From: a virus
Virus record (IMG/VR): IMGVR_UViG_3300033994_001756
Span: 108,254-172,253 of that record
Strand: one strand, 5' to 3'
Length of the DNA stretch: 64,000 bases
Shown: positions 5,120 through 31,000 of the stretch, in pieces
Position numbering within the stretch: position 1 is the first letter of the stretch
How the letters are laid out: every line of letters starts with the position of its first letter
The notes under the pieces: generated by a model
What the model was told of the DNA's origin: nothing
What the model saw: only the letters and a program-made list of their open reading frames with translations
The model's database searches: none
Position numbers and translations under genes: made by a program

Positions 5120-5706
5120 ATGGGTTTGATGTTTATCGAACATATCTAGCAATAAAACTACACTTTAGTAAAGATAATTTTGATTTTTTTAAATGTGGTA
5201 CAGGTAAAGCCAAAGCTTCACTAGAGGCATTTGAAAAACGAAAAGACAAATACTTTTTTAAGAAGTTGGCTACAAAATTTAGTCAAGATGAATTGATTCA
5301 ATATTTTGTAGCTCACTTTGTACAAAACAGAGACACTTGGATTGGAGATATTTCTAGGATAGAAAACACTTCAGTCTATTTAAATTGGCTAAAGAAAATT
5401 CAGAGCATGAGCTTTGTCTTTTCAAATGATTTAGATATCTTATTGAAGGAACATTCATTTGAAGATATCTTTAAGGTAACTAATACACATCCTCCAGTTA
5501 TAAAACAATACCTTTCAAGTTCTATAAACTTGGAAACATTAGTTATTCTTAACCAATTATTAAACTTCATTAAAGACTTTGATACTTCAATTAATGATCC
5601 TGTAGTTTGGCCAGATATCAAGAAGAAGGTACTGAAATACGAACCTTTCCTTTCACTAGATAAACCTAAATATAAGCAGATAGTTTTGTCGAAGGTTTCT
5701 AGCTGA
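5116..5706 (+). CDS. 59: gp59-like loader of gp41 replicative helicase
   Basis: A 196-residue, largely helical protein (T4 gp59 is 217) starting MNGFDVYRTYLAIKLHF. It contains FKCGTGKAKASLEAFEKRKD then FFKKLATKF, a pattern typical of gp59. It binds forked DNA and gp32 and loads the gp41 helicase at replication and recombination forks. Its neighbours fit: gp33 overlaps its start by 4 bases and gp32 lies two genes downstream. The many Lys and aromatic residues in the N-terminal half fit DNA binding. Confidence 0.88.
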   Translation: MNGFDVYRTYLAIKLHFSKDNFDFFKCGTGKAKASLEAFEKRKDKYFFKKLATKFSQDELIQYFVAHFVQNRDTWIGDISRIENTSVYLNWLKKIQSMSFVFSNDLDILLKEHSFEDIFKVTNTHPPVIKQYLSSSINLETLVILNQLLNFIKDFDTSINDPVVWPDIKKKVLKYEPFLSLDKPKYKQIVLSKVSS

Positions 5707-10570: not shown

Positions 10571-10578
10571 CCTAAATA
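10571..10578 (+). promoter_or_regulatory. Late-promoter-like box before gp26
   Basis: CCTAAATA lies 28 bases upstream of the gp26 ATG, in a 35-base gap between gp54 and gp26. It resembles the T4/cyanophage late -10 box TATAAATA (6-7 of 8). A sigma70-like TATAGT at about 10591 is a second possibility. Confidence 0.45.
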
Positions 10579-10605: not shown

Positions 10606-11316
10606 ATGCCTTTACCTAAAATTGTAACTCCGACGTATGAATTGCGTTTACCATCAACTGATCAATTAATTAAATATAGACCATTTCTAGTAAAAGAAGA
10701 AAAAGTTCTTCTGATGGCGATGGAATCTGAAGATGAATCTCAGATGATTAATGCAGTGAAAACCATCCTAAGAAATTGCATTAACTCTAAAATTAAAGTT
10801 GATGACCTAGCAGTATTTGATATCGAATATTTGTTCCTCAATATTCGTGCTAAGTCTGTGGGAGAACAAATCGAACTCAACATCACTTGCCCAGATGATG
10901 GGGAAACTACAGTTCCACTAGAGATTAATGTTGAGGATATTCAGATTCAAAAGTCTGAAGATCATTCTAGAATTATTTCATTGAATGATACTATTTCTGT
11001 TGTAATGAAATACCCTAGTATGGAAATGTTTGTTAAGTCAAACTTTACAGCTAGTGTAAAAACTGAAGACGTATTTGAGATTGCTGCATCTTGCATTGAA
11101 CAAGTTGTAGAAGGGGAAGATGTTTATGAAACCAAGAGTTTCTCTAAAAAAGAAATTAACGATTTCCTTGATAGCTTAGATACTGCACAGTTTTTACTGA
11201 TTCAAAAATTCTTTGAGACTATGCCAAAGCTATCTCATACAGTTAAGGTTACTAACCCAGTAACAAATGTAGAAAGTGATGTGGTACTAGAAGGTCTTGC
11301 AGCTTTTTTCGCATAG
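10606..11316 (+). CDS. 26: gp26-like baseplate hub assembly chaperone (0-frame product)
   Basis: A 236-residue protein matching gp26 (T4_baseplate chaperone family). It has a conserved N-terminal YELRLPSTDQLIKYRPFLVK followed by EEKVLLMAMES, a CPDD-type strand pair (ITCPDDGETTVPLEINVEDI), and a C-terminal helical part. gp26 helps assemble the central hub (gp27, gp5, tape measure) and is homologous in role to tail assembly chaperones of other tailed phages. The last codons contain a slippery heptamer, and the next 62 codons are open in the -1 frame (see separate entries), so this gene probably makes two products as lambda G/GT does. Confidence 0.88.
   Translation: MPLPKIVTPTYELRLPSTDQLIKYRPFLVKEEKVLLMAMESEDESQMINAVKTILRNCINSKIKVDDLAVFDIEYLFLNIRAKSVGEQIELNITCPDDGETTVPLEINVEDIQIQKSEDHSRIISLNDTISVVMKYPSMEMFVKSNFTASVKTEDVFEIAASCIEQVVEGEDVYETKSFSKKEINDFLDSLDTAQFLLIQKFFETMPKLSHTVKVTNPVTNVESDVVLEGLAAFFA
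11304..11310 (+). other. Probable -1 ribosomal frameshift site in gp26
   Basis: T-TTT-TTC fits the X-XXY-YYZ rule read in the gp26 frame: a Phe codon in P and Phe in A slip to TTT-TTT with tRNA-Phe able to read both. The 0-frame stop TAG follows only one codon later (11314-11316). The -1 frame is open for 62 more codons. The stretch has no ATG, GTG or TTG near its beginning that could start it independently with a ribosome site. Confidence 0.7.
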
Positions 11317-11502: not shown

Positions 11503-14163
11503 ATGCCAGCCAGACAAACTCAGACATCATTTAGATCATTTTCTGAGTCACTCAGATCTAGAAGACTATCTCCAGTAAATCCATCTGCGATTACTGGAGG
11601 GAGAGTGTCTGGCGCAAATATTACAAAGAAAGAAGTAGAAGAATTCGGCCAGGTCAGAAAAATCCTTGGTGGATTATTAGCATTAGAGAAAAGATATTAT
11701 CAATTTTTAGGGGATAGGATTCTACATTTTGCTAAAGAAGACGAAAGAAATAAATTAAAGCAAGAAGAGTCTGAGCAAGAAAAGAAAAAGAAACTAGGAA
11801 AGGATAAAGAAAAGAACCCTGTTTTAGAAAAAGCAAAGTCTGATCTATCAATGATCGGAGGATTCTTCAAAAATCTTCTGAAGTTTTTCGTTGGGTATAA
11901 AGTTCTTGAGTGGGCATCCAAAAAAGAAAACATAAGCAAAATTCAAGACTTTGCCAATCTATTCATAACGTTATTTAAATTCATTAGTGCAGTCACCAAC
12001 TTTGGTGTTGATGTATTAATGAAAACTCTTACGGTTACTTCTAAAGTAATCAATGGAGTCTTTGATTTCATAGGAAAGGTAGCAGAATTTTTCAGCTTTA
12101 GTTGGCTGGGCGGTGGAGTAGAATGGCTATTATCCACCATTGAAAATGCTACTTCTGTTATTGCAAGTATTCCAAATGCAATTACATTAGCAGTAAAATT
12201 CATGACTGATTTGATTCCAAATTTCCTGGAATCAGTTTTAACCCAAGGACTATTTGGTAGCCAGAAAGAACTAGAAGGTCAGGCTGATCAAGCAGTAGAA
12301 GCAAAGAAACCAGCAGAACCACAGACTCCATCAACAGAATCTGATACTGGTAAAAAAGATCTAGGAGAAAAGGCAAAAGAATCACTTTCTAATATTGGAA
12401 AGAACATCCTGAAGACTCTGTTCCCAGGGATGGATGTTGCTGCGAATATTGGAGCCAAGATTGGTGGTTCTATTAAATCATTATTCAGTGGACCTAAAAC
12501 TCAAGAGTCTCTTCCTAAGTTAGCTAAGGGTGGTATCGTAACTAAACCAACTGAAGCGATTGTTGGTGAGGCAGGACCAGAAGCAATTCTTCCACTGGAT
12601 AAATTGGGATCATTTGGTATTGATGGCTTCAAGGCATCTACCAATAAGATGATTCCTAAATTCATGAAGCTATTGACTTTACCATTTAATATTGTTGGTG
12701 CAGGAATCGTAGCATTAATTTCATCTGCAGTATCTAAAATTCCTGGTGTAGGACAATTTATACTTCCACTGATTTCTAATATTGCATCTAGCTTTGGTTT
12801 GCCTGCAGGATTGGTTGCGGGAATGAGTAATTTTGTAGGTGGTGTTACATCTGCAATTTCTGGAGGACTTGGCAATGTAGCTGAATTATTTGGGAAGAAT
12901 GAAGTCAATATACGTCAGCAGAAAGGAGAAGAGTTTTCTCCAACCAATGATACTTCAGTTAAAGGATTACTTGGAAACATTCTTGGTGCTCTGATCAGCA
13001 AGCAAAAGAAAGCTGCCACCACACCTGGAACCACGCCTCCTCCACCCCCTTCCACCCCACCAGCCCCATCTGGAACCCCTTCTAGTGGCACTTCAGGGAG
13101 CACTCCTCCAGCTACTAAGCCGAGTTCCATATTCACGTATCCAACTCAAGGAGAGGGTGGTGTTCCTGGGCAAGGCGGTGGAGATAAAATTCCTGCATTG
13201 TTAGAACCTCAAGAGTATGTCCTGAATCGAAATGCTGTCAAGGGAATGGGTGGTCCAAAAGTATTAGATGCTATTAACTATGGAATGTATCCAAGATTTG
13301 GTAGTGGTGGTCCAAATGTTTCAACTAAAAAGTTTTTAAAGCTTGGTGGTGGATGGGCTCCTGTACCAGAAGATTCTTCTGGTGTATCGTTAGGCAGAGG
13401 AATGAGTTCACGACATGGCGGAACAGATATTCCAATGCCAGTAGGAACTCCGCTACTTGCACCTTTCGATGGAATGGTGAAAGAAACCGGAAAGAATCCT
13501 GATGGGTGGGGAAATTTCATGGTATTAAAAAGTTCCAATGGAGTTTATTCTCTGTTTGGACATGTAAGTGATTATTCTAAAAAGCAAGGTGAACAAATTA
13601 AAGCGGGTGAACAAGTTGCATTAAGTGGGCATCGACATGGAGGAGGAAGAAGTAGTGGACCACATTTACATTGGGAAATTGGTAGTTCTTGGAATGGAAC
13701 TATTGGTGGAAAGATAGATCCAATTAGTTGGTCCTCTGGCAAAGCTATTCCATCTGTAAGTGGAAAAACATCATCCAGAACTAATACAGACTCTCCTGAT
13801 GATTCCACAGAATCTACACCAACATTTACTGCTGAGATGGGAGCCAAAGCTGCTGAGCAGTTGGGCAAACTATTCCAGATGTTAAATGGTCCTGCACCCA
13901 CTACAGTCCCAGAAGTTACCACTCCGCAGACTCCTAAAATAACAACTGCAGTTTCTGGAAACTCCCAAAATCTACAGAGAGTTCAGAGAGAAAATCTAAA
14001 AGTTCAGGCTCAAGCTAAACAGCAAACTAAAGCTGGTGGTAATGTAATAACTCTAGGCGAGCCAAATAAAACTATTACAGAATCAAGATCTCAACCAATG
14101 ACATCTACATTAGGAGGCACAACTCCACCGAATTCATTAATCAATTATCCATTAGCACCATAA
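11503..14163 (+). CDS. Tape-measure/hub protein 1 with M23 peptidase domain
   Basis: An 886-residue tail-lumen protein. Residues 1-110 are charged, with a long coiled coil (EEFGQVRKILGGLLALEKRY, then EESEQEKKKKLGKDKEKN). At about 120-150 is a motif shared with the next gene (LKFFVGYKVLEWASKKENI). Gly/Ile/Ala-rich amphipathic helices follow, as in tape measures. A GGIVTKPTEAIVGEAGPEA repeat (shared with many tape measures) lies near 345. A Pro/Thr-rich linker leads to a LytM/M23 endopeptidase domain: H638 and D642 (RHGGTD), a GHVSDY strand, and HLH at 721-723 (SGPHLHWEI), all zinc ligands intact. The predicted role is setting tail length and cutting peptidoglycan at entry. Confidence 0.85.
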   Translation: MPARQTQTSFRSFSESLRSRRLSPVNPSAITGGRVSGANITKKEVEEFGQVRKILGGLLALEKRYYQFLGDRILHFAKEDERNKLKQEESEQEKKKKLGKDKEKNPVLEKAKSDLSMIGGFFKNLLKFFVGYKVLEWASKKENISKIQDFANLFITLFKFISAVTNFGVDVLMKTLTVTSKVINGVFDFIGKVAEFFSFSWLGGGVEWLLSTIENATSVIASIPNAITLAVKFMTDLIPNFLESVLTQGLFGSQKELEGQADQAVEAKKPAEPQTPSTESDTGKKDLGEKAKESLSNIGKNILKTLFPGMDVAANIGAKIGGSIKSLFSGPKTQESLPKLAKGGIVTKPTEAIVGEAGPEAILPLDKLGSFGIDGFKASTNKMIPKFMKLLTLPFNIVGAGIVALISSAVSKIPGVGQFILPLISNIASSFGLPAGLVAGMSNFVGGVTSAISGGLGNVAELFGKNEVNIRQQKGEEFSPTNDTSVKGLLGNILGALISKQKKAATTPGTTPPPPPSTPPAPSGTPSSGTSGSTPPATKPSSIFTYPTQGEGGVPGQGGGDKIPALLEPQEYVLNRNAVKGMGGPKVLDAINYGMYPRFGSGGPNVSTKKFLKLGGGWAPVPEDSSGVSLGRGMSSRHGGTDIPMPVGTPLLAPFDGMVKETGKNPDGWGNFMVLKSSNGVYSLFGHVSDYSKKQGEQIKAGEQVALSGHRHGGGRSSGPHLHWEIGSSWNGTIGGKIDPISWSSGKAIPSVSGKTSSRTNTDSPDDSTESTPTFTAEMGAKAAEQLGKLFQMLNGPAPTTVPEVTTPQTPKITTAVSGNSQNLQRVQRENLKVQAQAKQQTKAGGNVITLGEPNKTITESRSQPMTSTLGGTTPPNSLINYPLAP

Positions 14164-14164
14164 A

Positions 14165-17143
14165 ATGGAAAACTTAACACCAGTTAGACCAGCTTCCATT
14201 ATAGGTAATAGTCGTCTAAGAGAAATCAAGACGATAAAGGGTATTGCACAAGATTTAGTAAAGCAGAAAAAACAGAATTTTGAATTGGAAAAAAAATTCT
14301 TCAAAATTCAAAAGGATACTATTGATAGAAATAAATTAAGAGACAAAGAAAGACTTCAGGAAGCAAAGAAACCAAAAAGAAAAGCTGGATTTGTTCGTGA
14401 AGAACTTAAAGATAAGTCTATAAAACTATTTGATTTGTTCAAGTTCTTTGTAGGATATAAAGTATTACAGTGGATGTCTCGCAAAGAGAATATTGAATCT
14501 ATTGGCGAAATCGCCAAAGCCATGAAAAATATTTTTAAGATTATAGATCATCTTGCTGGTATTGGAGTTGAAGGAGTTCTTGGTGGACTTCATAGTGTTC
14601 TATTTGGAAGCAACTTTTTAGAAAGATTTTTCGGAATATTTAAACTCATAGGTGGCTTTTTCATTATCAGGAGACTATTGTTTCCAGGTAAAATACTTAA
14701 AGACATTACTTGGATATTAAAGAATAGAAAGTCTATTGGTAAAGTATTCCAAGCATTAGGATCTGGAAAACTTAAAGAAGCTCTTGGAAGACTATTTAAA
14801 CTATTAACTCCAAATTTATATGTTGTATATACCAGAGGATTGACTGCAGGAGTTAAGCGAGTAATTCTTAAAGTATTTGGAAAGAATACTTTAAAACTCC
14901 TGACTAAGGTAGCTTCTAAAATTGGATTCAGAAGTGCAAAAGAGTTTGTAAAAAATACTGCAAAAAATATTGCCAAGCCTTTAACTAGAATACCTTTCAT
15001 TGGACCTATACTTGGCTTTGGATTAAATCTAATTTTTGGTGATCCACTAGACAAGGCTGCAGTCAAAGCAATTGGTGCTGGGATTGGAGCATGGCTAGGT
15101 GGTATTGTAATGGGCGCATTGGGAAGCATCGTTCCTGTTGCAGGAACTGCAGCTGGTGCTGGACTTGGTGCATTTGTTGGTGGATTTATTGGAGACTGGG
15201 TTGGTGATAAATTATACGGATTCTTTAAAGGATTCACCGCACCTAAAGAACCTGCACTTGCTGTTGGTGGTATTGTAACCAAGCCAACCAGGGCTTTGAT
15301 TGGTGAGGCTGGGCCAGAAGCAGTTATTCCGCTACCAAAAATTTATGATAGAACTATATTAAATGCTCCTATGGGTATAGTTGCATCTTCTATGATTGGG
15401 GGGATAGATGCAGTTATATCTTCATTGGGTCCTGTTGGCTTAACGATTAGACCATATGCATCTAGTTTACTAGCTCCATACAGAAGAGAGTTTGGATCTA
15501 CCAACTATGTGTTCACTTCTAATATTGGAGGTAAGACTACACCTTTAACTACTAAACTTCCAGAGCAAAATGACAACGAGGAAGTTGCTAAAATACTTGG
15601 TCTGAATAAAACCATTAATTTAATCAAGAAAAAGGAAACTGCAGAAGAGGCTAAAAAAGCCAGATACAATTCTGGGAATAGTGTTCGTGAAATTCTTGGA
15701 GATATTCTAAACAATATTATCAATCTAGACTTTACTAAAAAGTCTAAAAAGAAAACACGCCCAGGTGATACAACTAGAAATGGGGATATTGGTGAAGTTG
15801 GTGGGGAAGTAGATTTATCTGACGCTGACGATAGAACTTTATTAAAGCAACTAGCACTTGCAGAAGCTGCAGGTGAAGGTGTTGTTGGAATGGCATTGGT
15901 TGTCAATTCTGTGTTGAATAGAAAGCGAATTTTAGATGGTGGTGCTTCTCCTGGATTATTCCATGCAACTGATAAAACTATTCGTGGAATAATATACGCC
16001 AAAGACAGTGTTCAATATACTCCAGTTCAAAGTGGCACTATTAACAAGCAGTGGGGTGAAGGATCACTGAACCTTGCAGAGAAAGCTTTGCAAATGGGAA
16101 TGGATAAGTCTAAGTTGAGACAAGCATTGGAAGCTGAAGGAGTTAGTGAAAATAGTATAAAATTTCTAATCAATTCAACTGGATTTAGAAACTATGATGC
16201 AGGTGCAAGCAATGATAGATCTCAGAAGGTTAATGAGACTGTATATAAACGGCACACCTTTAATACTGCGGGTGTCCCTAAGATGCAACAAGGTGGTTTA
16301 GTTTCAAGAGGAGATATTACGAGTAAGTTTGGAAATAAAGAATCATTTAGAAAAAATTCTCATGAAGGAATTGATATTGCATTTCCATCTGGAACTCCTT
16401 TATCATTTACTTTAGGTGGAAAATTTCTTAAAGTTGCTAGAAGTTCCAGTAAAGAAAGAGAAGCAAATGGTGGCTATGGTCAATACATGGATCTTAAGTT
16501 ATCCGATGGAAAGATTGCCAGACTTGCACACCTAAGCTCTATCCCCAATTGGGTAAAGCAGGGTGGCGATTTCACACCAAATGCAATTGTTGCATTAAGT
16601 GGTGGCGCACCAGGAGCACCTGGCTCTGGTAGATCTGGTGGGCCACATTTACATTTAGAGCAACACACAACTCAAAAAGATTTAGCAGAGACTTTAAATG
16701 GTAAGGTTGATCCATTATCACAAGGTCTATTTGGATTATTGAGGAAAGGTGGTGCCCCTGGAAGTGCAACTAGTGGACCTGCTCAACCTTCACAATCTCC
16801 AGCTGCATCCCCGAATACAGTAAAAGAGTCGGAAGAATCTCAGCAAGAATCGCAACCGCCACCAATTAATTATGATGACATTGCTAAAAATCTAGGAGAA
16901 TTGTTCCAGATGTTAACTGGAACTCCAAAGACAAATGGTGCTCAGTTACAAAAAAATAGTATGGATTATGTCCAAGCATTCAAAGACTTCAAGCCAAATC
17001 CAGATACATATATTATGATGGGTGGAACTAATATAATTTCAAGTACTACATTGTTGACTCCAATTGAGCAACTAGATTATTCTTCTGGATCATTCTCAAG
17101 TATAGATAGCGCAACTGCGTTTAAACTCAACACAAGACTCTAA
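14165..17143 (+). CDS. Tape-measure/hub protein 2 with SleB-like and M23 domains
   Basis: A 992-residue paralogue of the preceding protein. It shares the charged N-terminal helix, the KFFVGYKVLQWMSRKENI motif at about 95, and the GGIVTKPTRALIGEAGPEA segment at about 370. Differences are a strong Gly/Ala transmembrane-like stretch near 280-340 (GLNLIFGDP..., IGAGIGAWLGGIVMGALGSI) and a cell-wall hydrolase of SleB type (LALAEAAGEGVVGMALVVNS, about 555-705). The C-terminal M23 domain has H733, D737 (SHEGID) and HLH 828-830 (GPHLHLE). It starts 1 base after gene 1's stop and stops overlapping gp27 (TAATG). Likely partner or product of duplication of the tape measure; which one sets the length is open. 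Confidence 0.83.
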   Translation: MENLTPVRPASIIGNSRLREIKTIKGIAQDLVKQKKQNFELEKKFFKIQKDTIDRNKLRDKERLQEAKKPKRKAGFVREELKDKSIKLFDLFKFFVGYKVLQWMSRKENIESIGEIAKAMKNIFKIIDHLAGIGVEGVLGGLHSVLFGSNFLERFFGIFKLIGGFFIIRRLLFPGKILKDITWILKNRKSIGKVFQALGSGKLKEALGRLFKLLTPNLYVVYTRGLTAGVKRVILKVFGKNTLKLLTKVASKIGFRSAKEFVKNTAKNIAKPLTRIPFIGPILGFGLNLIFGDPLDKAAVKAIGAGIGAWLGGIVMGALGSIVPVAGTAAGAGLGAFVGGFIGDWVGDKLYGFFKGFTAPKEPALAVGGIVTKPTRALIGEAGPEAVIPLPKIYDRTILNAPMGIVASSMIGGIDAVISSLGPVGLTIRPYASSLLAPYRREFGSTNYVFTSNIGGKTTPLTTKLPEQNDNEEVAKILGLNKTINLIKKKETAEEAKKARYNSGNSVREILGDILNNIINLDFTKKSKKKTRPGDTTRNGDIGEVGGEVDLSDADDRTLLKQLALAEAAGEGVVGMALVVNSVLNRKRILDGGASPGLFHATDKTIRGIIYAKDSVQYTPVQSGTINKQWGEGSLNLAEKALQMGMDKSKLRQALEAEGVSENSIKFLINSTGFRNYDAGASNDRSQKVNETVYKRHTFNTAGVPKMQQGGLVSRGDITSKFGNKESFRKNSHEGIDIAFPSGTPLSFTLGGKFLKVARSSSKEREANGGYGQYMDLKLSDGKIARLAHLSSIPNWVKQGGDFTPNAIVALSGGAPGAPGSGRSGGPHLHLEQHTTQKDLAETLNGKVDPLSQGLFGLLRKGGAPGSATSGPAQPSQSPAASPNTVKESEESQQESQPPPINYDDIAKNLGELFQMLTGTPKTNGAQLQKNSMDYVQAFKDFKPNPDTYIMMGGTNIISSTTLLTPIEQLDYSSGSFSSIDSATAFKLNTRL

Positions 17144-18465
17144 TGAATCAACAATTTGCTGGAGATTTTTCTCTAAAAACAATAAAGTTATATCCACTTA
17201 CTGCAGTTAATGGAGATAAACGTCCGTTTATTGACATCAAAGAACTTGTTAAAGAAGTTACTTTTTACCAGAGTATTATATCCACTAGTTTATATTGTGA
17301 ACTTGTAGTTAATGATATTGGAGAAAACTTAATCGAAACTCTTCCCCTGATTGGACGAGAAAGAATTGAATTAAATATCTCAACTCCATATGCAAATTAT
17401 GATTTGAATTTTTACATTCATAAGATTGATGGTCGAGTAATGCAAGAGAAGAACCAAGTATATGTGGTTCATGCAATAAGTAAAGAAGCTTTAGACAACG
17501 AGTACACTAGAATTCGTGAACGAGTAAATGGAAAAAAAGCAGAAGTATTTCTAGAAGAAAAATTAAAAACCATAAGCCAAAAAGAGTTTAAAAAGAATGT
17601 AGATGATACATTATATCCTTTTGACATGTATGTTCCCAACTGGAGATTGTTTGATACTGCAATCTGGATGTCTCGCAGAAGTGTTCCAGTAAAAAATAAA
17701 TCTTCCGTGGGATATGTATTTTATGAAACCTTTGAGGGATATAATTTTAAATCTCTAGACGTATTATTTGATGCGGGTACATATCCAAATAACAAAACAA
17801 AATATGCGTTTGTTCAGGGAAATACATCTGCATCCAAGACTGAGTTGAATAACTATAGAATTATGAATTATTCATCTACAAAGGCATTTGATATTTTAGA
17901 TGACCTTCGTAATGGTGCATTTGCACATAATGCACTGTACGTAGATATCAACAATCGTAACTTTCAAAATTGGAGTACTAATGCCTCAACATACTGGAAA
18001 GATATGAGTCATCTTAATAAAATGACTCCATATCAAGATGAAGATTTGTTGAAGCGACCATCTAGATTAATCTATAGACCTACCACAAATTCTACATTTG
18101 GTTGGAAAGATTTATCCAATGAAGAAATTGAAAATTTAAACAACATAGATGAAGTAAATAAAAATTATGAGAAGTCAATTTACAGATATTACTTCTTGGA
18201 ATATAATAAATTAGAAATCGCTGTTCCTGGAGACTTAAAACTTCAACCAGGGTACGTAATCAATGTTTCTATTCCTTCTCCGAAGAGAACTAGCGATAAT
18301 AAAATAAAAGAAGATACTAGATTAAGTGGCAGATATATTGTTCATTCTGTTAAGCATACCATCCTAAATAGAACTGAACTTAGAACTATTGCTACATTAA
18401 CAAGAGATTCATTTGGTGGTAATGAAATCAAAAAAACTAATGTACCCAGCGGAGCAACATTCTAA
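17143..18465 (+). CDS. 27: gp27-like baseplate hub subunit
   Basis: A 440-residue hub protein (T4 gp27 is 391). It forms the trimeric hub ring that holds the gp5 spike and the tube. Recognisable are the N-terminal strand pair (TFYQSIISTSLYCELVVNDI), the ERIELNISTP motif, and the C-terminal YINVSIPSPKRTSDN, SGRYIVHSVKHTI then TRDSFGG block that closes the second tube-like domain. It is flanked by the tape-measure-like genes and by gp5, as expected for hub assembly, and starts in a TAATG overlap. Confidence 0.88.
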   Translation: MNQQFAGDFSLKTIKLYPLTAVNGDKRPFIDIKELVKEVTFYQSIISTSLYCELVVNDIGENLIETLPLIGRERIELNISTPYANYDLNFYIHKIDGRVMQEKNQVYVVHAISKEALDNEYTRIRERVNGKKAEVFLEEKLKTISQKEFKKNVDDTLYPFDMYVPNWRLFDTAIWMSRRSVPVKNKSSVGYVFYETFEGYNFKSLDVLFDAGTYPNNKTKYAFVQGNTSASKTELNNYRIMNYSSTKAFDILDDLRNGAFAHNALYVDINNRNFQNWSTNASTYWKDMSHLNKMTPYQDEDLLKRPSRLIYRPTTNSTFGWKDLSNEEIENLNNIDEVNKNYEKSIYRYYFLEYNKLEIAVPGDLKLQPGYVINVSIPSPKRTSDNKIKEDTRLSGRYIVHSVKHTILNRTELRTIATLTRDSFGGNEIKKTNVPSGATF

Positions 18466-18681
18466 ATGGAACAAGATATAAATCAACACATCGATCGAAA
18501 TAAAGATCAACTAGAAGATTCAAATACTAGTTCTCAAAGACGTAGATTTTTAGAAAGCGAACTAGAGTCTCTAATTAAATATAAAGAAAATCACCCAACC
18601 AAAACAAAAGATCCTAGCCCACTAGATCTATTCTGCAACGAAAACCCAGAAGCTCCTGAATGTCGTATATACGAAGTGTAA
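18466..18681 (+). CDS. Small protein with CP12-type C-terminal motif
   Basis: A 71-residue acidic protein. The N-terminal 45 residues form a charged coiled coil (RRRFLESELESLIKYKENHP). The last 22 residues, DPSPLDLFCNENPEAPECRI followed by YEV, closely match the C-terminal half of CP12: Cys-x3-NP-x3-ECR-(I/V)-Y with a 7-residue loop between Cys. In cyanobacteria and plants this half of CP12 forms a redox disulfide and binds GAPDH to switch off the Calvin cycle. The N-terminal CP12 half (second Cys pair and AWDxVEEL) is absent. It starts directly at the gp27 stop and ends 3 bases before gp5, so it is expressed with the hub. It may be a T4 gp28-position hub factor with a CP12-like fold, or a true CP12 mimic. 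Confidence 0.8.
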   Translation: MEQDINQHIDRNKDQLEDSNTSSQRRRFLESELESLIKYKENHPTKTKDPSPLDLFCNENPEAPECRIYEV

Positions 18682-18684
18682 TAC

Positions 18685-21135
18685 ATGTCAATTAATCCTA
18701 CATTACAAAATTCTGCATTCCTTGGTAATAATGATTTCACTTGGTGGTTAGGCACTGTAGAAAATCCAGATGATCGAGATGCGAAACTAGGTAGAGTTCG
18801 TGTAAAAATTCTTGGCTTTCATGATCCATTTGAGAAGCCAGAGAATTTACCTTGGGCACTCGTTCTTCAACCAACTACTAATGCTGCAGTAAGTGGTATT
18901 GGAAATGCAGCTAATGCAGGATTAAAAGCAGGTAGTTTTGTGATGGGATTTTTCCTAGACTATCCTGACTGCCAACAGCCCGTAGTAATGGGCTCATTCT
19001 ATAGTCAAATCAGACCAATTTTTGGAGACCCAAATACTCCTGCTACTGCTAATACTCCTGGAATTGCAAATACAGTAACTTCAAAAGAATCCAAAACAGG
19101 TCAGCCACAAGATGCCGAGAGAACTAATGATGCAGGTGGACTAGCATCTGATTCCGTTGCAGCTGCTTCTCTTCCTGCATCTCCATCTAATCCATCTGGA
19201 AATGTTGGAGCCACATCTATTGCAGATGGAAAAGATGGCCCTGCAAATACACTTGTAGAAGATATTAAAAGATGTATTGAAGGACTTGGTAATATATTTA
19301 AAACTGGAGTTATATATAATCCAAATGCAACTAATCCAAAATTAACTAGAGATTTATCTATCGAAGAAAATTATATTACAATTAGTAGTGTAGATGCGTT
19401 TCCTCCAATTGGAGTAATTCAAATAGGAAATGAAAAGATTGGATATAATGGAAAGAATGAAAAGTCTTTAGTCAATGTAAAAAGAGGACTACAAGGAACA
19501 ACACCAATTGCACATTCTTCAGGTGCATCTATTAGATATATTAAGAAGACTGATACTCCAATTGAAATCTATGGTAAGTTTACAAATAAAGTTGTAGATT
19601 TAAAAAGTGCCGTAGATAGATGTATTCAAGTAATTAGAAATTTAGTTTGGTATATTGTCAACAAAGTTAAGTCTTGGTTGATGGCGGAAGTTACCAGAAT
19701 TTTAAATGATATTGGGCTAGGAGCAAGTAGCCCCATTCCATATTTTGTAAAAACTCTTACTGAAGTTGTTGTTCAAGTTCTGAAAACTATTTCATGTACA
19801 ATTGATGAAGCATTAGTTGATGCATTGATGAGTGGAATTGAAGGGTTTATTAAAGATTTTGTTGAGAATATGGCTAATGATTTGTTGGAAATGGCAGATA
19901 ATTATATTCAATTTGCAGAGAATTGTATTAATGATATATTTGGATCTATCTTTGAACTCATAGCAGTCGGAACTGAAATTGCAAGTGCTATTCAAGGAAT
20001 TATATCTTTGATTCAAAGTGTTGGGAAAATAGGTGAGATGGGTGCATTGTTTGATGACAAGGGATTCGTAAATGCAAATATGTTAAGTAACATAGGAAAT
20101 ATAGTTGGATTTATTTTAAATTTACTTGGCATTGGATGTAACAGAACTACTGATTCCCCACTGCAAATTGATTGGAATGAATGTGCATTAACTGGAAACA
20201 ACTGCAATCCATTTAATTTTAGAGTTACTAATAATATTGCAGGTAAATGGAATCCAGAATATTCAAAAGTTTCTGTTCAAGCTTCTGAGGCAGGTCATAT
20301 GATTATGATGGATGACACTCCATATCATAATAGACTTGTCATTGAAGCTGCTGGTAGCAGAACTGGTTTTCAAGTAGATGATGATGGGAATATTCGTGTC
20401 ACCAATAGTAATAACAAAGTTGAAATTACTTTTGGCAAACAAGAAGTTACTATTATGGGAGATGTACACATCAAGACTAAAGGTAATTATCACTTAAAGG
20501 TTGGTGGGAACTATCATCTAGAAGTAGATGGTCAGTATAATGTATTTGCAAACCGAGAAAGTAAAGTAACTTATAATGGAGAACATGAAACAATTTATAG
20601 TAATGATGCTAAGTTAAGTGCTGCGAATGGATTGGCTATTGCAGGGTCTAAAATAGGTCTTAGTGCAGGTGGACAGTTAGATATATATGCGCCAACATTT
20701 AGTACTATTTGCACAGAACAAAATCATCTATTATCTGGATCTTGGAATCTGTTTGCAATGTATGAGAATAAGTATATTGGATTAAATAAATTTTGTTTGG
20801 TTGGAGGAAATAAAATCAATCTTCGTGCAGGAACTAATACCGATATTGGAACTGGGTTATCTAATAAATTCCAGGCAACTGCAGAAAATGTATGGAAGGG
20901 CGGATTATACAATACTACTATTATGGGAGTCAATAGTCTTACTAGGTTGGGTATTAATAATGATACTACAGTTGGAGCAACATCTAAGAATAGATTGGCG
21001 GTTCAGCTGGAGGCTGTTGGTGGGCCTAATTTCTGTACAGTTGCAGCTCCAGAATCAAGAATAACAGAGGGACCAATACTAGATTTAAGTAGTTCCTTAT
21101 GCATGAGAGAAGCTCCAGTCATCTTCGATACATAA
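18685..21135 (+). CDS. 5: gp5-like baseplate central spike (hub) protein
   Basis: An 816-residue spike protein. The N-terminal OB-fold is visible (WWLGTVENPDDRDAKLGRVR, then VKILGFHDPF, and VMGFFLDYPDCQQPVVMGSF). Residues about 160-500 are not the T4 lysozyme domain. They have an Ala/Ser-rich linker, a small beta insert (SIEENYITISSV) and a hydrophobic helical stretch (IRNLVWYIVNKVKSWLMAEV and onward). From about 540 repeats of VxIxxxxNYHLxVGGNYHL-type form the trimeric beta-helix needle (HIKTKGNYHLKVGGNYHLEV). It pierces the outer membrane at contraction; peptidoglycan cutting may come from the M23 domains upstream. It ends the tail operon. Confidence 0.88.
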   Translation: MSINPTLQNSAFLGNNDFTWWLGTVENPDDRDAKLGRVRVKILGFHDPFEKPENLPWALVLQPTTNAAVSGIGNAANAGLKAGSFVMGFFLDYPDCQQPVVMGSFYSQIRPIFGDPNTPATANTPGIANTVTSKESKTGQPQDAERTNDAGGLASDSVAAASLPASPSNPSGNVGATSIADGKDGPANTLVEDIKRCIEGLGNIFKTGVIYNPNATNPKLTRDLSIEENYITISSVDAFPPIGVIQIGNEKIGYNGKNEKSLVNVKRGLQGTTPIAHSSGASIRYIKKTDTPIEIYGKFTNKVVDLKSAVDRCIQVIRNLVWYIVNKVKSWLMAEVTRILNDIGLGASSPIPYFVKTLTEVVVQVLKTISCTIDEALVDALMSGIEGFIKDFVENMANDLLEMADNYIQFAENCINDIFGSIFELIAVGTEIASAIQGIISLIQSVGKIGEMGALFDDKGFVNANMLSNIGNIVGFILNLLGIGCNRTTDSPLQIDWNECALTGNNCNPFNFRVTNNIAGKWNPEYSKVSVQASEAGHMIMMDDTPYHNRLVIEAAGSRTGFQVDDDGNIRVTNSNNKVEITFGKQEVTIMGDVHIKTKGNYHLKVGGNYHLEVDGQYNVFANRESKVTYNGEHETIYSNDAKLSAANGLAIAGSKIGLSAGGQLDIYAPTFSTICTEQNHLLSGSWNLFAMYENKYIGLNKFCLVGGNKINLRAGTNTDIGTGLSNKFQATAENVWKGGLYNTTIMGVNSLTRLGINNDTTVGATSKNRLAVQLEAVGGPNFCTVAAPESRITEGPILDLSSSLCMREAPVIFDT

Positions 21136-21690: not shown

Positions 21691-22026
21691 TTGAAAAATT
21701 TAGGAAAGCATTGTGTCGCAGAACTCTATGGATGCGATCACACCATTCTCGATAATGAGAAAATTTTAAAAGAACTCATACGAGAGTCTATTGATATTGC
21801 TGGCGCAACGTTATTGAATATTTGCTCTCATAAATTTGACCCACAAGGAGTTACTATAGTAGCTTTATTATCAGAAAGCCATATTTCAATTCATACTTGG
21901 CCAGAATCTGGTAGCTCCGCATTAGATGTATTTACATGCGGAGATTCTAAACCAGATTTAGCACTTTTGCACATCATAAATTTTCTAAAGCCTACAGAAT
22001 ATAACATGAACTGTTTTGACAGGTAA
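21691..22026 (+). CDS. speD: S-adenosylmethionine decarboxylase proenzyme
   Basis: Prokaryotic class 1B AdoMet decarboxylase, 111 residues, which makes decarboxylated AdoMet for spermidine synthesis. The self-cleavage site is intact (LLSESHISIHTWPE): pyruvoyl-forming Ser63, His68 and Cys83 (VFTCGD) fall at the same numbers as in the well-studied Thermotoga enzyme. The first codon is TTG at 21691; no ATG lies nearby and the N-terminus (KNLGKHCVAELYGC) begins where the family begins. speD is a known cyanophage auxiliary gene. Polyamines may help condense DNA or support host metabolism. It stands between tRNA-Leu and the giant structural gene. Confidence 0.93.
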   Translation: MKNLGKHCVAELYGCDHTILDNEKILKELIRESIDIAGATLLNICSHKFDPQGVTIVALLSESHISIHTWPESGSSALDVFTCGDSKPDLALLHIINFLKPTEYNMNCFDR

Positions 22027-22071: not shown

Positions 22072-25000
22072 ATGGCTCTAACTAGAATTACATCTGGTGG
22101 TATTGCGGAAGGCGTTGTAATAAAGTTTGATCAAAATAATAGCCCAACAGCTCCAGCTATTGGATTTGAAGGTGTAGGTAATACTGGAACTGGTATTTAC
22201 AGCCCAGCAAATAATGAATTAGCTATTTCTACAGATGGTCAAACACGATTGACCTTTAAACCTGATGGTAAAATCATTGCAGGGAATGGAACTATTCTAG
22301 GTGGAACAAACCCAGACTTTGAGAATGCAGAGAATATCACTCTTTATGTAAACCAGTCTGACAAAAATGCTACCGACCTAGAAGATAATGATGGTGGTAA
22401 TTTAAATAGACCATTCAAAACTATTGAAAGAGCATTACTAGAGGCAGCAAAGAGAAGTTATAAACCAAACCCAACTGCGATTTCCGTAAGTACATTAGAA
22501 GTTGGTAAAGCATATACTATTGTAAACGCAGGCAATACTGATTTTGTTTCTATTGGTGCATCGTCTAATACTGCTGGTGTATCTTTCATTGCTACCGCAC
22601 AAGGAAATGGAACTGGTACAGTAGTTCTAAGCAATGATAAGTTTGAGGCATTTACCATTATGGTTCTGCCTGGTCAATATGAAATTGACAACAGACCTGG
22701 ATATGATATTACTACCAACCCGCTATCTGCAGGAACTGCTGTTGCAATTGATGCAGAGCCATTTAGATTTAACCCAAGAAATGGTGGCGTTATTGTACCT
22801 AGAGGTACTTCAATTGTTGGTTATGATCTCAGAAAAACTGTTATCAGACCTAAGTATGTTCCTTCACCATTTTCAATTGATGGAAGCATAACCAGTGATG
22901 GATATATTCTGTACCATACCATGTATGATGGTGCAAATATGGTTGAAAAGAATCGTGGTTATATTCAAGAGCAAACTAAATTATATCTTCAAGGAAATCA
23001 AGCTGGATATAATGGTTTAAATGATGCTCAAAAGAATCTATGTATTCGTGATATTGGCTATTTTATTGATGCTATTGTTAAAGATTTAAGGCAAGGTGGC
23101 AACGAGAATACCTTCAATAATGCAGAATATTATATTGATGGTAATGGCTACAGAACACAATTCTTGAAGTCTGGTGATAGTGATTTATCTCAAGAAGTTG
23201 CAGCTACAGTAGCCGCATTTAATCATGCGATTAGCATTATGAGATTTATTACAAAATCTTATAATGATAGTAGCATTACATATTCAGAAATTACTTCTGG
23301 CAAAACTATCAACAGAACTACATTCTCTGCAGGAAATGGATATGTTTCCGATGGAGATTGTTCTGCTGTAGTTAATGCTGTAGCAACTTTAGGTGCTATT
23401 GCTACTGGAATTCTCAACAATCCAGATGATTACACTAGAGAAGCAGTTACAGTAACTCTTGTTGGTGGCGGAACTGCAACTGTAAAGCTCAGAAAAACTC
23501 AAGGAGTATTTAATCAAACCTCAATCTTTAAGGTAACTGGTGGTTGCTACTTCTGGCAGATGACCTTCAAGGATGCTGTTGCAACATCATCAAAGCCAAT
23601 TTATAATGGAGCTTCATTTGATTCAAATGGAATTCCAACATTCAGCACTACCACTGATTCAAAATATTCTCACCATAGAGTTGTTGCATTTACATATGCG
23701 GATCAAAGAACAACTGATGGTGAACTAGATCAGTACTATAAAAAAATTGATGCATGGCAGGGAAGACCAGATACATCTCAAGTAAGACCAGAAGAATATA
23801 CTATCGTTGGTGATGGAAGTAAGAATAGCACTATTGATACTGTTAATTCTTGCTCACCATACATTTTTAACTGTTCACTACGTTCTGTCTTTGGTATGTG
23901 CGGTATGCATACTGATGGCAGTAAGGTTGCAGAAAACAGCTTCAAGTCCATGGTTGTTGCACAGTTCACTGGTATTTCTCTACAAAAAGATAGAAGTGTA
24001 TTCATTCAACCTAAAGATTTACAAGGAGATACTAACGTAACTCCATCTCCAAACACAACCACATTATATAATGATGATGATGAATCTACTACTGCAAAAC
24101 CTCCAGTATTTGCAGATCCAGACGCAGAATATAAGCCAGAATGCAGACACTTCCACATCAAAGCATCCAATGGTGGATTCATTCAGGTAGTTTCTGTGTT
24201 CGCAGTTGGATATGCTGATCAATTCCTTGCAGAAACTGGTGGTGATATGTCTATCACCAACTCCAACTCTAACTTTGGTCAGATTTCACTTCGTGCAAAA
24301 GGTTCCCAGTTTAATTCCTTTGCTCCAGCATCACAAGGTAGAATCACTGCAGTAGTTCCACCTAAAGGAATCTCACCAACTCTCAATGATGTAAGTTTCT
24401 ATAATATTAATGCTGGTCCAACTTGGGGTCCAAGTACATTCGCAACAAGTGAAGAATTAACTCCAGCAGTATTAAGTGCTCTTGCAGGTTTCACTAACTC
24501 AAAATATTTTAGTCTATATCTTGAAACTGGTGCAACTAATGAAGATAGTATTCCAGAATTAATTGTTACTAGTACAGATAAAGTTACCGGCAATAAAGTA
24601 ACAAAACGATTCCTAAGTTATGGAACTTCAAATCAATACTCACTTTTCCGTGATTATTATCAAGTTACTGGAATTTCTCCAGAATCATCTAGGTATATTA
24701 ACTTAGAATTAGAAAGTTCTACTGGTGGTGAACCTAGTAAATTTAGAGCAAAGGTAAAGATATTCGATCCAACTGATATTCCAGATGAAGATAATCCAAA
24801 AGTTAATAATGTTCCAACAACAAAGAATGCAGAAAGAGTTGGATATTTCTGGGATAATAATGGAGTATATTTAAAACTAGATTATACTGATGCAGATACT
24901 AGAAAATTCCTAACTGATTTTATCTTTTCATTCAATGAAGAAAAATCATTTGATTTTGTAACTAAATTTAATCCTGGTGATGGTTCAGCTACAACTGCAC

Positions 25001-28000
25001 TTGAAGAAGTAACTAGAAAACTTTTAAGATATAAGACTGGATTCCCATCAACTTTAACAATTAAAAAATACTTAGATACTAGAACATCTGCACCTTCAGA
25101 ACTATTATGGAAGCTTGAATATACTATTCCAAAATACTTAAGTAGTAATGCAATTCCAAAGGCACCAGAGAAAAGATTTATTATCAAAGGAACTAGAGCA
25201 GGTAATGGTGAAGATGGAATTCCATACTCAGACTATAGATTTATGGTATGGGATGTTCAAGAAGTTACTTCTTGGGAAAAAGATGTTAGAGATGGTGTAT
25301 ATTATCTAACTGTTATTAGATGTGACGTAAATAAGTTTGCTGATTCTTCCGCAAATTCACCGTCTACCATCGAAAGGAGACCTACTGGAATTGATGCTCC
25401 TGGAACTGGAACTACTACAACATCATTTAGTTCTACATTTATTGAAGAAGTTAATAACTTTGATAAAGATACTAAACTATTCACAAATATAAATTATCTA
25501 TATCCTTCTGTAAATGAAGAAGGTCCAGATTATGATACTAGAAGAGTTTGGAATTTCCCACAAGCAGATTCTCGTGTATTACTTGAAAATATTGGCCAGG
25601 GAAATAGAATTAAAGATATCTCTGTTCCAAACTTTAAGAGTTTTAGAACAACTGATTCTACTACTCCATTTAAAGATATTCCATCTTTATATTCAGTTAC
25701 TGCAGAATCTGTTCATAGATTAGTTCAAGCACTAGATCTAAGATATATCACATCTTCTAATACTATGGCCACTACAGGTGGTGGCCCAGATAACTCTGGT
25801 AGAGTATTCATTGCCCCAGTTGCACCATGGGATTCTAGAACTTCTCAGTCTGCATTGGGGTATACTTCAAGTTCAACTTCTTTTAATGTATATTCTAGTT
25901 CAATTAGATTTGGTAGAGGTCCTGCAGGATCAATAGTTACCGAAGCATCAAAAATTACAGAGTATAATAATTTTGGTGTTAACTTGGATGCTGCGGATAG
26001 AAGAATTATCGTTACTTCTCCTGGCTATGTTGTAAATTCCAATACTATACAAGCTAGTAGTGATGCCAATCAAACTGGACTGACTTATGCTCCATTATTA
26101 CCACTTTATAGACCTTCTATTCTCCGTGCATCTTCACACACTTGGGAATATATTGGTCTTGGTTCTGGTAACTATTCAACTGGCTTCCCAAATCTACAAA
26201 CAAGAGTTCTTAAAATCTATGAGCAGTTTATTGCTCAGGGCTATGAAAATTCTGGTGGATTTATTGCATCATCTGGTACAAACTCTGCTGGTGATTTCTA
26301 TATTGGAAACCAAATCATTCAAGCTGGTGGTACTTCTACAGTAACACTAAACGTACCAAAGCTTCGCAAATCATCAGAATCTAATTATCTAGATATTGAC
26401 AATATTGAAAACCGTATCTCAAATGCAGTTGTCAATGTTACCGATACTGCTGATGGCTCTGGGGCAAATGCAAATCAGAGTGCATTGAAAGAACTATCCA
26501 ACTTCTTCAACATTGCAAAGCTAACCGTTAGCGACAAAGCAAATATCAATAACTTGATCATTGGAGAAAGACTATTCATTGACAGAGCTGAAATTAATAA
26601 TTCTGCATTCTTCCCAGAAGGTAATACTAATGCATATGGTTTCGTAAAAGCTGCTAAACCTGAAAAAACTGGTTTTATTTCAACTGATACTAACGATAAA
26701 CTATATGTTTCTCCTAAGTACCTTGATGCATGGAGAGTAAAGAGGCAACTCATTTCTGCTCAAGCAGTTACACTTGATAACAACAGAGTTTATGTTCAAC
26801 CATATCTACAAAACTCTGTCGATTCATATAAATCAGTAAATGGAAAGAAAGTAGCTGATGCAATTACATTTACAAATACTGTAGTAAATGATGTTACTTG
26901 GTCAACTAGTTCAGTAATTAAACTAGCATTCACTGAAAGTTCTGGTATTCCTTCTTATGGTAAAATTGATATCGAAATGAATTTAATCGGTCTAACTGTT
27001 ACCGATTTTTATGTTGATGGATCGGGAAATAAAATTTACTTCAATCCTGTTATTAATATCCCACTTCAATATCAAGAAATTGATTATACTGATAATACAG
27101 CTGTAATTTCAAATTATCAAAATGGAATTGCATTACCTACATATCTAAGAAGTTATTGTGGCAATGGAACTTATACTTCCATAATTAAAAACTATCCATC
27201 TATCATTGCTACTGGTGGAAATTTTGGAACAGATGCATCTGAGGGAGATATTAAATATCTAACCGCAAAACTTGCAAGTAACTTCACCAACAATAATGAT
27301 ATTAACGTATTAAATACTTCAACATATAAAGATCTGCAGGTTACTATGACTGCAGATGAATATCAACAATGGCCAAATAGAGGTTGCATTTCATTAAGAG
27401 AAGCTCCTAAAGGAGGAACATATAAAATTGCTACATTTGCATATTACAAAACTGGACACAATAGTGGAACTAATGTTGCAACATTTAAACTAACTAAAAA
27501 CGTTGGAGAAGGAACTAATACTGCTGGAACTAGCGCCCAATTTACAACTGACTACGAAAATAATTATCCAGGAATTGCATCTAAAAATGTATTCTTCTTT
27601 GGATGTAGTACTCAGGTCTATTCTTCTGATAGATGGGCAGCCGAATCTCCATTCATTCCACCTCTAGATCCAACAAAGGGTGTAGTAGAGGAAGTTAATA
27701 TTGAAGATGCAATTCTGTACACTAGCCCACAAAAATCTCTTCCAGTTGCAGTAACTCTTGATCAAGATTGGTTTGATAAGAATTTACCTAATCCATATAG
27801 CTCTAAAGCTCTTGGTGTTAATATTCAAGAAAGAAGAGCAGTTAAGAAATTTAGCCCTCTATTCTCATTCTCCCAGGCAAAGCAGTGGGCAGAAAACTCT
27901 GGATTTACTTCTGCTGATGAACTAGAACTTCTTATGAAGCCTGGTTATTACAAACTAGATGGAACTCAGTTCCCATGCTCTGTTAAAATTAATGGTACTG

Positions 28001-31000
28001 GAGTTGCAAATAGCAGTGTATTTGCTGGTAAAGAGCGTACTCGTACATCTGCAGGTAGAATGGGTGGATACCTAGAAGATACTGTCCGAAGAGGAGATAG
28101 CATTTATCTTTATCGCTCTCCCGAGTTTTACACACAATGGGGATTTGGAAATGATGCAATGTATGTAAATGTGAGTGGAGGACTTGGTGCAAATGGCTCA
28201 TTTAATGTTAATAATGTACATTTCCTTGGATTAAATGAAGCGATTACCAAGAGTGAAATTCCTGACTCCATTTATACCTCCAATCCGGTTCTTCAAAATG
28301 CCAGAAGAGTAGTAAGAAGAGCATATTATATTAAAGGAAAAATTAAATCAACTCCATCATTGAATACCATCAACAGCACTGGAGTTGACGGTGCAATTGA
28401 AGTGATTGCAAATGTTTCTACTGGAACTGGAGTAAACGCTTTACTAGTACCAAGTGTCAATAGTATAGATATTGTAAATGATATTGCAGATAATGCAAAT
28501 TATTATGAATTAAACTCTGCTACTATTTCAAATAGTCGTTATTTAGTAGTAGTACTGAAGCAAAGTGACTTTACTGCGGAACAATTTGACCGCATGAGAA
28601 AATATATCATTCCAGGTACAACCATGTATTGGTTGGCAGAGAATGGTAAAGTAATTAAACTATCAGATGAAGCTACTGTTGAAAATCTATCCAAGTCTAC
28701 TAAAGTTCTAAGTGTCAGAAGAAAGAACGCTGGTCTCAATACAGAAGAAATTCAGGTATTAATTTCAGTATATCGCACTGCAGGTGGCAATAATGGCAAT
28801 AATGCAAGTTATACTAATCCCGTAGAAGATTTAGATCTAGAAGGATATACATCTGGAAAGAGAAAACTAGTCTTCCTCAATGAAGATGGAGCAGAATTTA
28901 CCACACTTGCATACAACTGGGCACTTGAAACTAGAAGGCAGTTCCTTCCAAAAGGATTCATGCATGAAGGTGGTTATCAGTCAGCAATTATTAAAACAGT
29001 AGTTTCTGGTGGAGCTAGTGGAACTAAAACAATTACATTAGACAATGTTGAATCAATTTTAACAGGGGACAAAATTGTAGCTTTAGATTCTGCTGGCAAC
29101 AATTTAATTCCAGTTGGAACAAGAGTAGAGACTATTGTAGGAAATGTAATTACATTAACTGATAACATTACCACAAGCATCCCTGCTCAATCATTTGTAT
29201 CATTTACACAGTTTAATATTTTTGGTGATGAGATTACTAAGTATGATATTCCTGAAATTTATGGTATCATACGTGGTTCTGAAGAAGGATACATTTCACT
29301 TATAATTGATAGAAATCCAAACTATGAAGTTGATAATTCCATTCAACCTTATCCATATGGTGCTGGTTCATTCTCAGAATATCCAACTCAATTAATTCAA
29401 TTAAAAACAACACCAACTTCAACTACAACTAATTATGGTGCAGCTGAAGATGTTGCTATTGCTACAAACAGAAAGAAAGCTCTTCCATTGAGACGAAATG
29501 GTTTCACTGAAACTAGATATCTTGTTCTTGATATTGCTCCTAGAGAATTTGGCGCTATCCCTGCAGGAAATGCATCAAATCCAAACGCAGCTACATCTAT
29601 TGATTCATTTATTGAGAATGCTGGAATTTCTAAGACTATTCTAACTCAGTTTGCAAACTATGATAACACCACTCTGCAATTTGGTGGTGGTATTGGTAAA
29701 GGATTTGTACAGCCAACTATAAACTTTAATAATATTACTATTGCTGCTAATGCTGAGTTTACAATTGGAAGTAATGATATTCAAAGTGCAATTAATACTG
29801 CATTGAATTCTGCAGGAAGCCTCACAAATACTAGAAGTTACAATGATAGGCTATTTGCATCTTTAGTATCTAATGGAGGAACTTCATCTAATGTTGCGTT
29901 GTATGCAACTATTAATGTTAGCACTGGAGCTATTACTTCAGTTATGGCGTATAGACTTAACAGTACTCAACAAACTACCATTAATGGTTCATTTAGAATT
30001 CAGATTAATGATGGTAGAGGATTTATTCTTTCTCCTACAGGAAGAACTGTATCATTATCAGATAACCAACTATCTGCTGACGACTTTAAAGTTGTTGCAA
30101 AGCAAAATCTTCTATCTGCAATTGCTACTACTCCAGATACTACAGGTGGTGGATCATCTCCATATCTAGATTATGTTAGAAAGAGAACAACTGGTCCTGG
30201 AGCAAATGTAGATGATGATGCACTAACTGCTAGAGGTAAAAAGATATTTCTATCTTGGCCATATGCATATAGAGCACTCAGAAGAAGATTCCCATCTGCA
30301 GGATTCCCTGTCAATGGTAACTATCAGAGCAGCCTAATTACCGTAAATGCAATTCCAGGATCTGGGTTCACATTAAACCTAACTGGGGTTACAATTGGTG
30401 CTCAATCTCCTGCTTCTGAAGCTGCAAATACATTTGGTGGAGGATATCGTGGAGGACTGATCAAGTGTAGAGGTTCTAAACTAACCCTAAATGGAACTAG
30501 ATTTAGAGGAAATCTATCTCTTGATTGGACTGGATTGTTTAGTGGCAATTCATCTAGAGTTGGAGGTAGCTTCATTGCTGGGCACTCTATTGAGATGTTC
30601 CAGATGGAAGATCAGAATGAATTTACTCAAATGGGTGGAGATTTACCTGCATATGCAATTGCTACTTCTCCACAAGATGAAGAATTTAGAACTCTATCAG
30701 AATATAATCCACAATCAAATATTTACCTAGAGCCATCTAAGGATCCATATGGTAGATTATCCGATGGTGATGCTAGAACATTCCCAATTAATACACTACA
30801 AGCTATTAGAAGATTTAATAAGTCTTCTCAGGGTGTAGTTCCTTGGACTGGAGAAAGTGAAATTCCTAAAGGAGGATTACTGACAAAAGTTGCATTGAAT
30901 GAAAGATATCAAACTCCTAATAAAATTTATTATGATGCTCCAAACGGAACTCCAACTGGAAATCATATTCCTACTGCATCTGGAAATAGTTCTGCTGTAT

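Follow-up and report, generated by a model that had tools for sequence, protein, structure and literature searches.

An ordinary cyanophage cp12 gene of picocyanobacterial type between the gp27-like and gp5-like tail-hub genes

The open reading frame at positions 18466 to 18681 (plus strand; ATG start, 71 aa) of the window, a 64,000-nucleotide stretch of viral DNA (positions 108,254 to 172,253 of IMG/VR record IMGVR_UViG_3300033994_001756), is the ordinary cp12 of the phage, its sole copy and an auxiliary metabolic gene of the picocyanobacterial type. We consider it probable, from the sequence of the product, that this is a metabolic gene residing in a structural operon and that the C-terminal tail of the protein would block host GAPDH. 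cp12 is a textbook metabolic gene of cyanophages; the gene described here adds one member to a known family, in its usual place among the T4-like cyanophages compared, and is overall ordinary. Such a member by itself matters little, and its use lies in the correction of a premise and in a testable point about timing. The gene call draws on Pfam family PF02672, PHROG 627, an AlphaFold model and dN/dS ratios.

The 71-aa protein matched the Pfam CP12 model (PF02672) with 50.9 bits (E=2.7e-13; curated cut-off 22.7) over model positions 2-70 of 70, i.e., over the whole model, and PHROG 627 with E=5e-20. The CP12 motif is far above chance level, and the CP12-type C-terminal tail that a first-pass annotation had noticed on this small open reading frame (CNENPEAPECRIYEV) is real by the Pfam measure. 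An NCBIfam search with the protein gave no match, and a Pfam match to End3 (E=0.0019, below the cut-off) was set aside as a chance helical resemblance. A tblastn search with phage CP12 returned 370 records, cyanophages nearly throughout. The gene is under strong purifying selection; its dN/dS relative to close relatives is about 0.1-0.2, which indicates a functional protein gene, and the lowest values fall mostly in the tail. When the 172-kb record was scanned with PF02672, the cp12 of the window was the single match, and the additional full cp12 whose presence in the same phage was to be checked was thus not found. The record carries psbA and hli-like genes along with this single CP12 and is therefore that of a cyanophage. 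Matches to talC, gnd, zwf and cpeT were not found in the record, which is possibly incomplete; with respect to talC, gnd and zwf, the usual pentose-phosphate partners are accordingly absent.

The AlphaFold model of the protein (mean pLDDT 90.8) has predicted helices at residues 5-17, 23-42 and 52-59, the first two forming a confidently predicted helical hairpin in the N-terminal half, followed by the tail helix. The best match in a profile search of structures was 6gfo, full-length CP12 bound to cyanobacterial GAPDH (E=4.5e-8); the same CP12 was ranked first by Foldseek, with a weak E-value of 0.16. Matches from VIA-align (Z about 5) were generic helical hairpins and uninformative. The Cys pair of the tail, C57 and C66 (C-x8-C spacing), is kept throughout the 103 unique phage and 64 unique host proteins, the latter chosen by similarity to the phage form. 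The penultimate residue of the window protein is E70, and this place is acidic in 102 of the 103 phage proteins.

The N-terminal CP12 half, which the first-pass annotation had taken to be missing, is present. A profile HMM built from phage residues 1-48 only matched the N-terminal half of every one of 79 picocyanobacterial CP12s, at E-values from 2e-9 to 4e-14 against 0.5 for the best unrelated open reading frame, and the first 48 residues of the window protein alone, used as the query, found 77 of these 79 at E<1e-3. Judged by this similarity, the N-terminal half of phage CP12 is homologous to that of the picocyanobacterial hosts. Only the N-terminal Cys pair and the AWD motif (AWD_VEE core) are absent: neither occurs in any of the 103 unique phage CP12s, the window protein having no Cys outside the tail, or in any of the 64 unique host CP12s collected for their similarity to the phage form. 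By the homology and the absence of the same features in hosts, the protein is a CP12 of the usual picocyanobacterial kind and has not been truncated. When ten of these host genomes were scanned for the family, each had one or two CP12s, and the CP12s inspected were also of the two-Cys type, except for a more diverged copy in genome G010. Second CP12-like paralogues in Cyanobium genomes (L224, L225) have the tail motif NC, not EC.

Picocyanobacterial CP12s of the two-Cys type (Cyanobium, Synechococcus WH7803) resemble the window protein in having Cys only in the C-terminal pair. Identity between the phage form and picocyanobacterial CP12 is about 40-47%, the common features being H8-I9, R27, E32, L36, Y39, H43-P44, D49-P50 and the tail. 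The two differ in the loop between helix 1 and helix 2 (S-x-QRRR in phages, GD-x-GKVR in hosts) and at the C-terminal end, where the hosts have DD or ED, whereas the last residue of the window protein is V. Canonical CP12 (Thermosynechococcus 6gfo, Arabidopsis CP12-2) has the C-terminal GAPDH-binding tail and its Cys pair in common with the phage form but also possesses the N-terminal Cys pair and the AWD_VEEL core, both of which the phage form lacks. No similarity was detectable between the N-terminal half of the window protein and CP12 of T. elongatus.

The placement between gp27 and gp5 with gaps of 0-3 bases, as first described, was confirmed by measurement: cp12 follows the end of the gp27-like hub/tail protein gene (17143 to 18465, plus strand; PHROG 350 tail protein, E=3e-91; T4-GC15 'tail protein' of cyanophages) with a gap of 0 bases, and 3 bases separate it from the start of the gene for the gp5-like baseplate hub subunit with its OB domain (18685 to 21135, plus strand; Pfam Gp5_OB, E=8e-11; PHROG 694, 'baseplate hub and tail lysozyme', E=7e-44). 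The run of hub genes opens with a gp26-like T4 baseplate protein (10606 to 11316, plus strand; Pfam T4_baseplate, E=1e-73) and includes an M23-peptidase hub protein (11503 to 14163, plus strand; Pfam Peptidase_M23, E=7e-21) and an M23/cell-wall-hydrolase hub protein (14165 to 17143, plus strand; Pfam Peptidase_M23, E=1e-7).

Cyanophages had been said to carry cp12 elsewhere in the genome, which is at odds with the loci compared here. cp12 occupies the gp27/gp5 junction in nine of 15 annotated cyanophages (S-SZBM1, S-RSM4, S-RIM8, DSL-LC03, DSL-LC02, S-CREM1, S-ShM2, P-RSM4 and S-SCSM1), where cpeT or oxygenase genes are sometimes inserted as well, and a gp27-like gene is directly upstream of it in 83 of 102 non-redundant phage loci, a set biased towards relatives of the query. 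It is found away from the hub in P-HM2 and S-TIM5 (near talC), S-SRM01, S-SKS1, P-TIM68 and, as a diverged copy, P-SSM2. The P-SSM2 gene (PSSM2_066; L038, 3938-4201) is unannotated and strongly diverged, with another N-terminal half, and Pfam matches its tail only. CP12s of named cyanophages (T4-GC337; PHROG 627; S-SZBM1 SSZBM1_64, S-RSM4 SRSM4_226, S-ShM2, P-RSM4) have the same length, tail and N-terminal half as the window protein, are likewise devoid of the N-terminal Cys pair and are likewise encoded between gp27-like and gp5 genes. The window protein is at most 60% identical to them, has an N-terminus longer by one residue and ends in V instead of D, and its gene has no adjoining cpeT or oxygenase insertions, unlike the named loci. 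Two contigs of metagenome-assembled genomes, labeled Bifidobacterium breve (L050) and Euryarchaeota (L119), carry cyanobacterial or cyanophage CP12, probably by binning contamination.

Sullivan et al. 2010 (PMC3037559) single out the surroundings of gp5 as a variable-gene hot spot. We take the gp27/gp5 junction, intact without cp12, to be a point where host-derived genes insert; a place there would then be no sign of a structural role. In the tree, the phage CP12s, that of the window among them, form one group (support 99/94) apart from 19 hosts; copies from hub and non-hub positions are interleaved within it, and a separate lineage of hub CP12 was not seen. The tree implies 11 changes of position, at least 3 of them forced, the number of moves being uncertain since the tree rests on 71 columns and many of its forks are open.

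These data bear on the suggestion that the protein acts in tail-hub assembly, as a factor in the position of T4 gp28, and merely shares the CP12 motif. The tight placement, which is kept in most related loci, would suit such a factor, but gp27 and gp5 directly abut without cp12 in P-SSM2, P-HM2 and S-CRM01, the same gene stands beside talC, PTOX or gnd in the metabolic cassettes of P-HM2 and S-TIM5, hub and non-hub positions alternate on the tree, and the host homologue has no virion tail to serve. In addition, non-cyanophages with the same gp27 are without CP12: the gp27-like gene matched 860 phage records in tblastn, with homologues in hundreds of enterobacterial, Vibrio and Rhizobium phages, and in Acinetobacter and Klebsiella phages the next gene follows the homologous gp27 with no CP12 between. 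A gp28-type factor would be indispensable where gp27 and gp5 meet in related tails, and CP12 is not. On synteny, tree and virion proteomes the hub factor was rejected, and we regard it as very improbable. Homologues with the same C-terminal tail in phages of non-photosynthetic hosts, named at the outset as evidence against a CP12 function, were looked for by tblastn and not found, matches being confined to cyanophages and two 'Marine virus' records. Methylophilales phage Melnitz-1 (L206; Kyanoviridae, non-photosynthetic host) has a gp27-like gene, and the stretch examined contains no CP12.

It is also highly unlikely that virions carry CP12 and deliver it to the host as a ready-formed disulfide switch, a role on delivery that the first-pass annotation had proposed. 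The gene neighbourhood points that way, and non-structural proteins are known to be carried in cyanophage virions (PMC10665884), but CP12 is not listed in the virion proteomes of two phages with a hub cp12. The proteome of S-SZBM1 contains the gp27-like neighbour (_65) and not CP12 (_64), though it did include two other proteins of only 87 and 122 aa (PMC9146016). The virion list of S-CREM1 (14 proteins, 4 structural and 10 unknown) includes no annotated CP12 (PMC9964418). At 8 kDa, a protein may escape such detection.

For a metabolic CP12 blocking host GAPDH, the following course may be proposed. The protein would be made after infection, probably for the most part late, along with the hub genes; the C57-C66 disulfide would hold its C-terminal tail, which would enter the NADPH site of the photosynthetic GAPDH of the host; the block of GAPDH would stop the Calvin cycle, and NADPH and ATP would thereby be spared for phage DNA synthesis. 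The role generally assigned to phage cp12 is to turn the host away from carbon fixation and shut it down. Canonical CP12 acts in the oxidised state (in the dark), whereas infection proceeds in the light, which is a point against the course proposed. In canonical CP12 the docking of PRK is the task of the N-terminal half; in the window protein it may be weak or made differently, because the N-terminal Cys pair and the AWD motif are absent. The penultimate Glu of Chlamydomonas CP12 touches the arginine of GAPDH that binds NADP (PMC4436894). A Synechocystis CP12 lacking the N-terminal Cys pair continued to regulate GapDH2 and restored near-wild-type behaviour, whereas one lacking the C-terminal pair did not (PMC9623430). 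Together with the kept tail Cys pair and the acidic penultimate residue, the Synechocystis data make inhibition of GAPDH the best-supported action. We infer GAPDH binding by the window protein from its tail, the last residue of which (V) differs from the host D. The initial proposal of a late-made half-CP12 that binds GAPDH thus appears largely sound as to CP12, but the protein is full-length and not a half.

A full canonical role, in which a GAPDH-CP12-PRK complex is formed despite the missing N-terminal Cys pair, is conceivable but rather unlikely. The N-terminal half is conserved and modeled as a confident hairpin, and the picocyanobacterial host CP12s are without the same Cys pair, as is reported for S. 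elongatus CP12 (PMC9623430); however, the AWD motif and the N-terminal Cys pair are both tied to PRK inactivation and absent in all phage members checked, and the N-terminal half evolves faster than the tail according to the dN/dS comparison. In the literature, both GAPDH and PRK are given as targets of phage CP12; the real one may be GAPDH, because all phage forms checked and the matching host CP12s lack the two PRK-linked features.

A conserved motif ahead of cp12 is one modest new point. The late-promoter-like CTAAATA lies inside the gp27 gene at 18364 to 18370 (plus strand), 95 nt before the start of cp12, and is conserved in relatives. Cyanophage late promoters read NATAAATA (PMC2984593), and CTAAATA ranks first of 105 7-mers of the same composition in its concentration 15-60 nt ahead of gene starts in the window. 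A copy at 10572 to 10578 (plus strand) precedes the gp26-like gene heading the hub run by 27 nt; this copy and those at 5666, 48080 and 52522 lie 21-33 nt before gene starts and take the place of the T4 late consensus TATAAATA, of which the window has a single copy, fewer than expected by chance. At 18179-18207 there is a sigma-70-like box, which was dismissed as within chance expectation for the region.

Of the 26 hub loci that have a gap, 15 carry [A/C]TAAATA within 120 nt before cp12 (expected 2.0), as do 14 of the 19 non-hub loci (expected 1.2), and all these copies sit 20-28 nt before the start. The clade of the window has no such gap; here all 11 non-redundant loci carry the motif within the gp27 gene, at -94/-95 (locus L008 in the form ATAAATA), and the codons after it (AAT AGA ACT GAA) are identical in 9 of 9. 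Most other gap-free hub loci (44 of 57) have no motif nearby, and cp12 is probably transcribed there along with the hub genes. As a prediction, the motif of the window clade suggests late expression. The cp12 of P-HM2 was published as middle-expressed (PMC5082946) and is also preceded by ATAAATA, which makes 'late' uncertain for the window gene. Only tentatively do we propose that cp12 in hub-located lineages is under late-type [A/C]TAAATA control, here via a promoter embedded in gp27, with carbon fixation shut during virion assembly. If true, the shut-off would fall in virion assembly, as against the middle phase in P-HM2; the promoter pattern suggests different timing for hub-located cp12 and cp12 in a metabolic cassette.

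Just downstream of gp5 lies a host-derived gene for a speD-like S-adenosylmethionine decarboxylase (21691-22026; Pfam E=2e-36, TTG start), and positions 22072-35778 form one open reading frame of 4568 aa, apparently encoding a giant tail-fibre-like protein.
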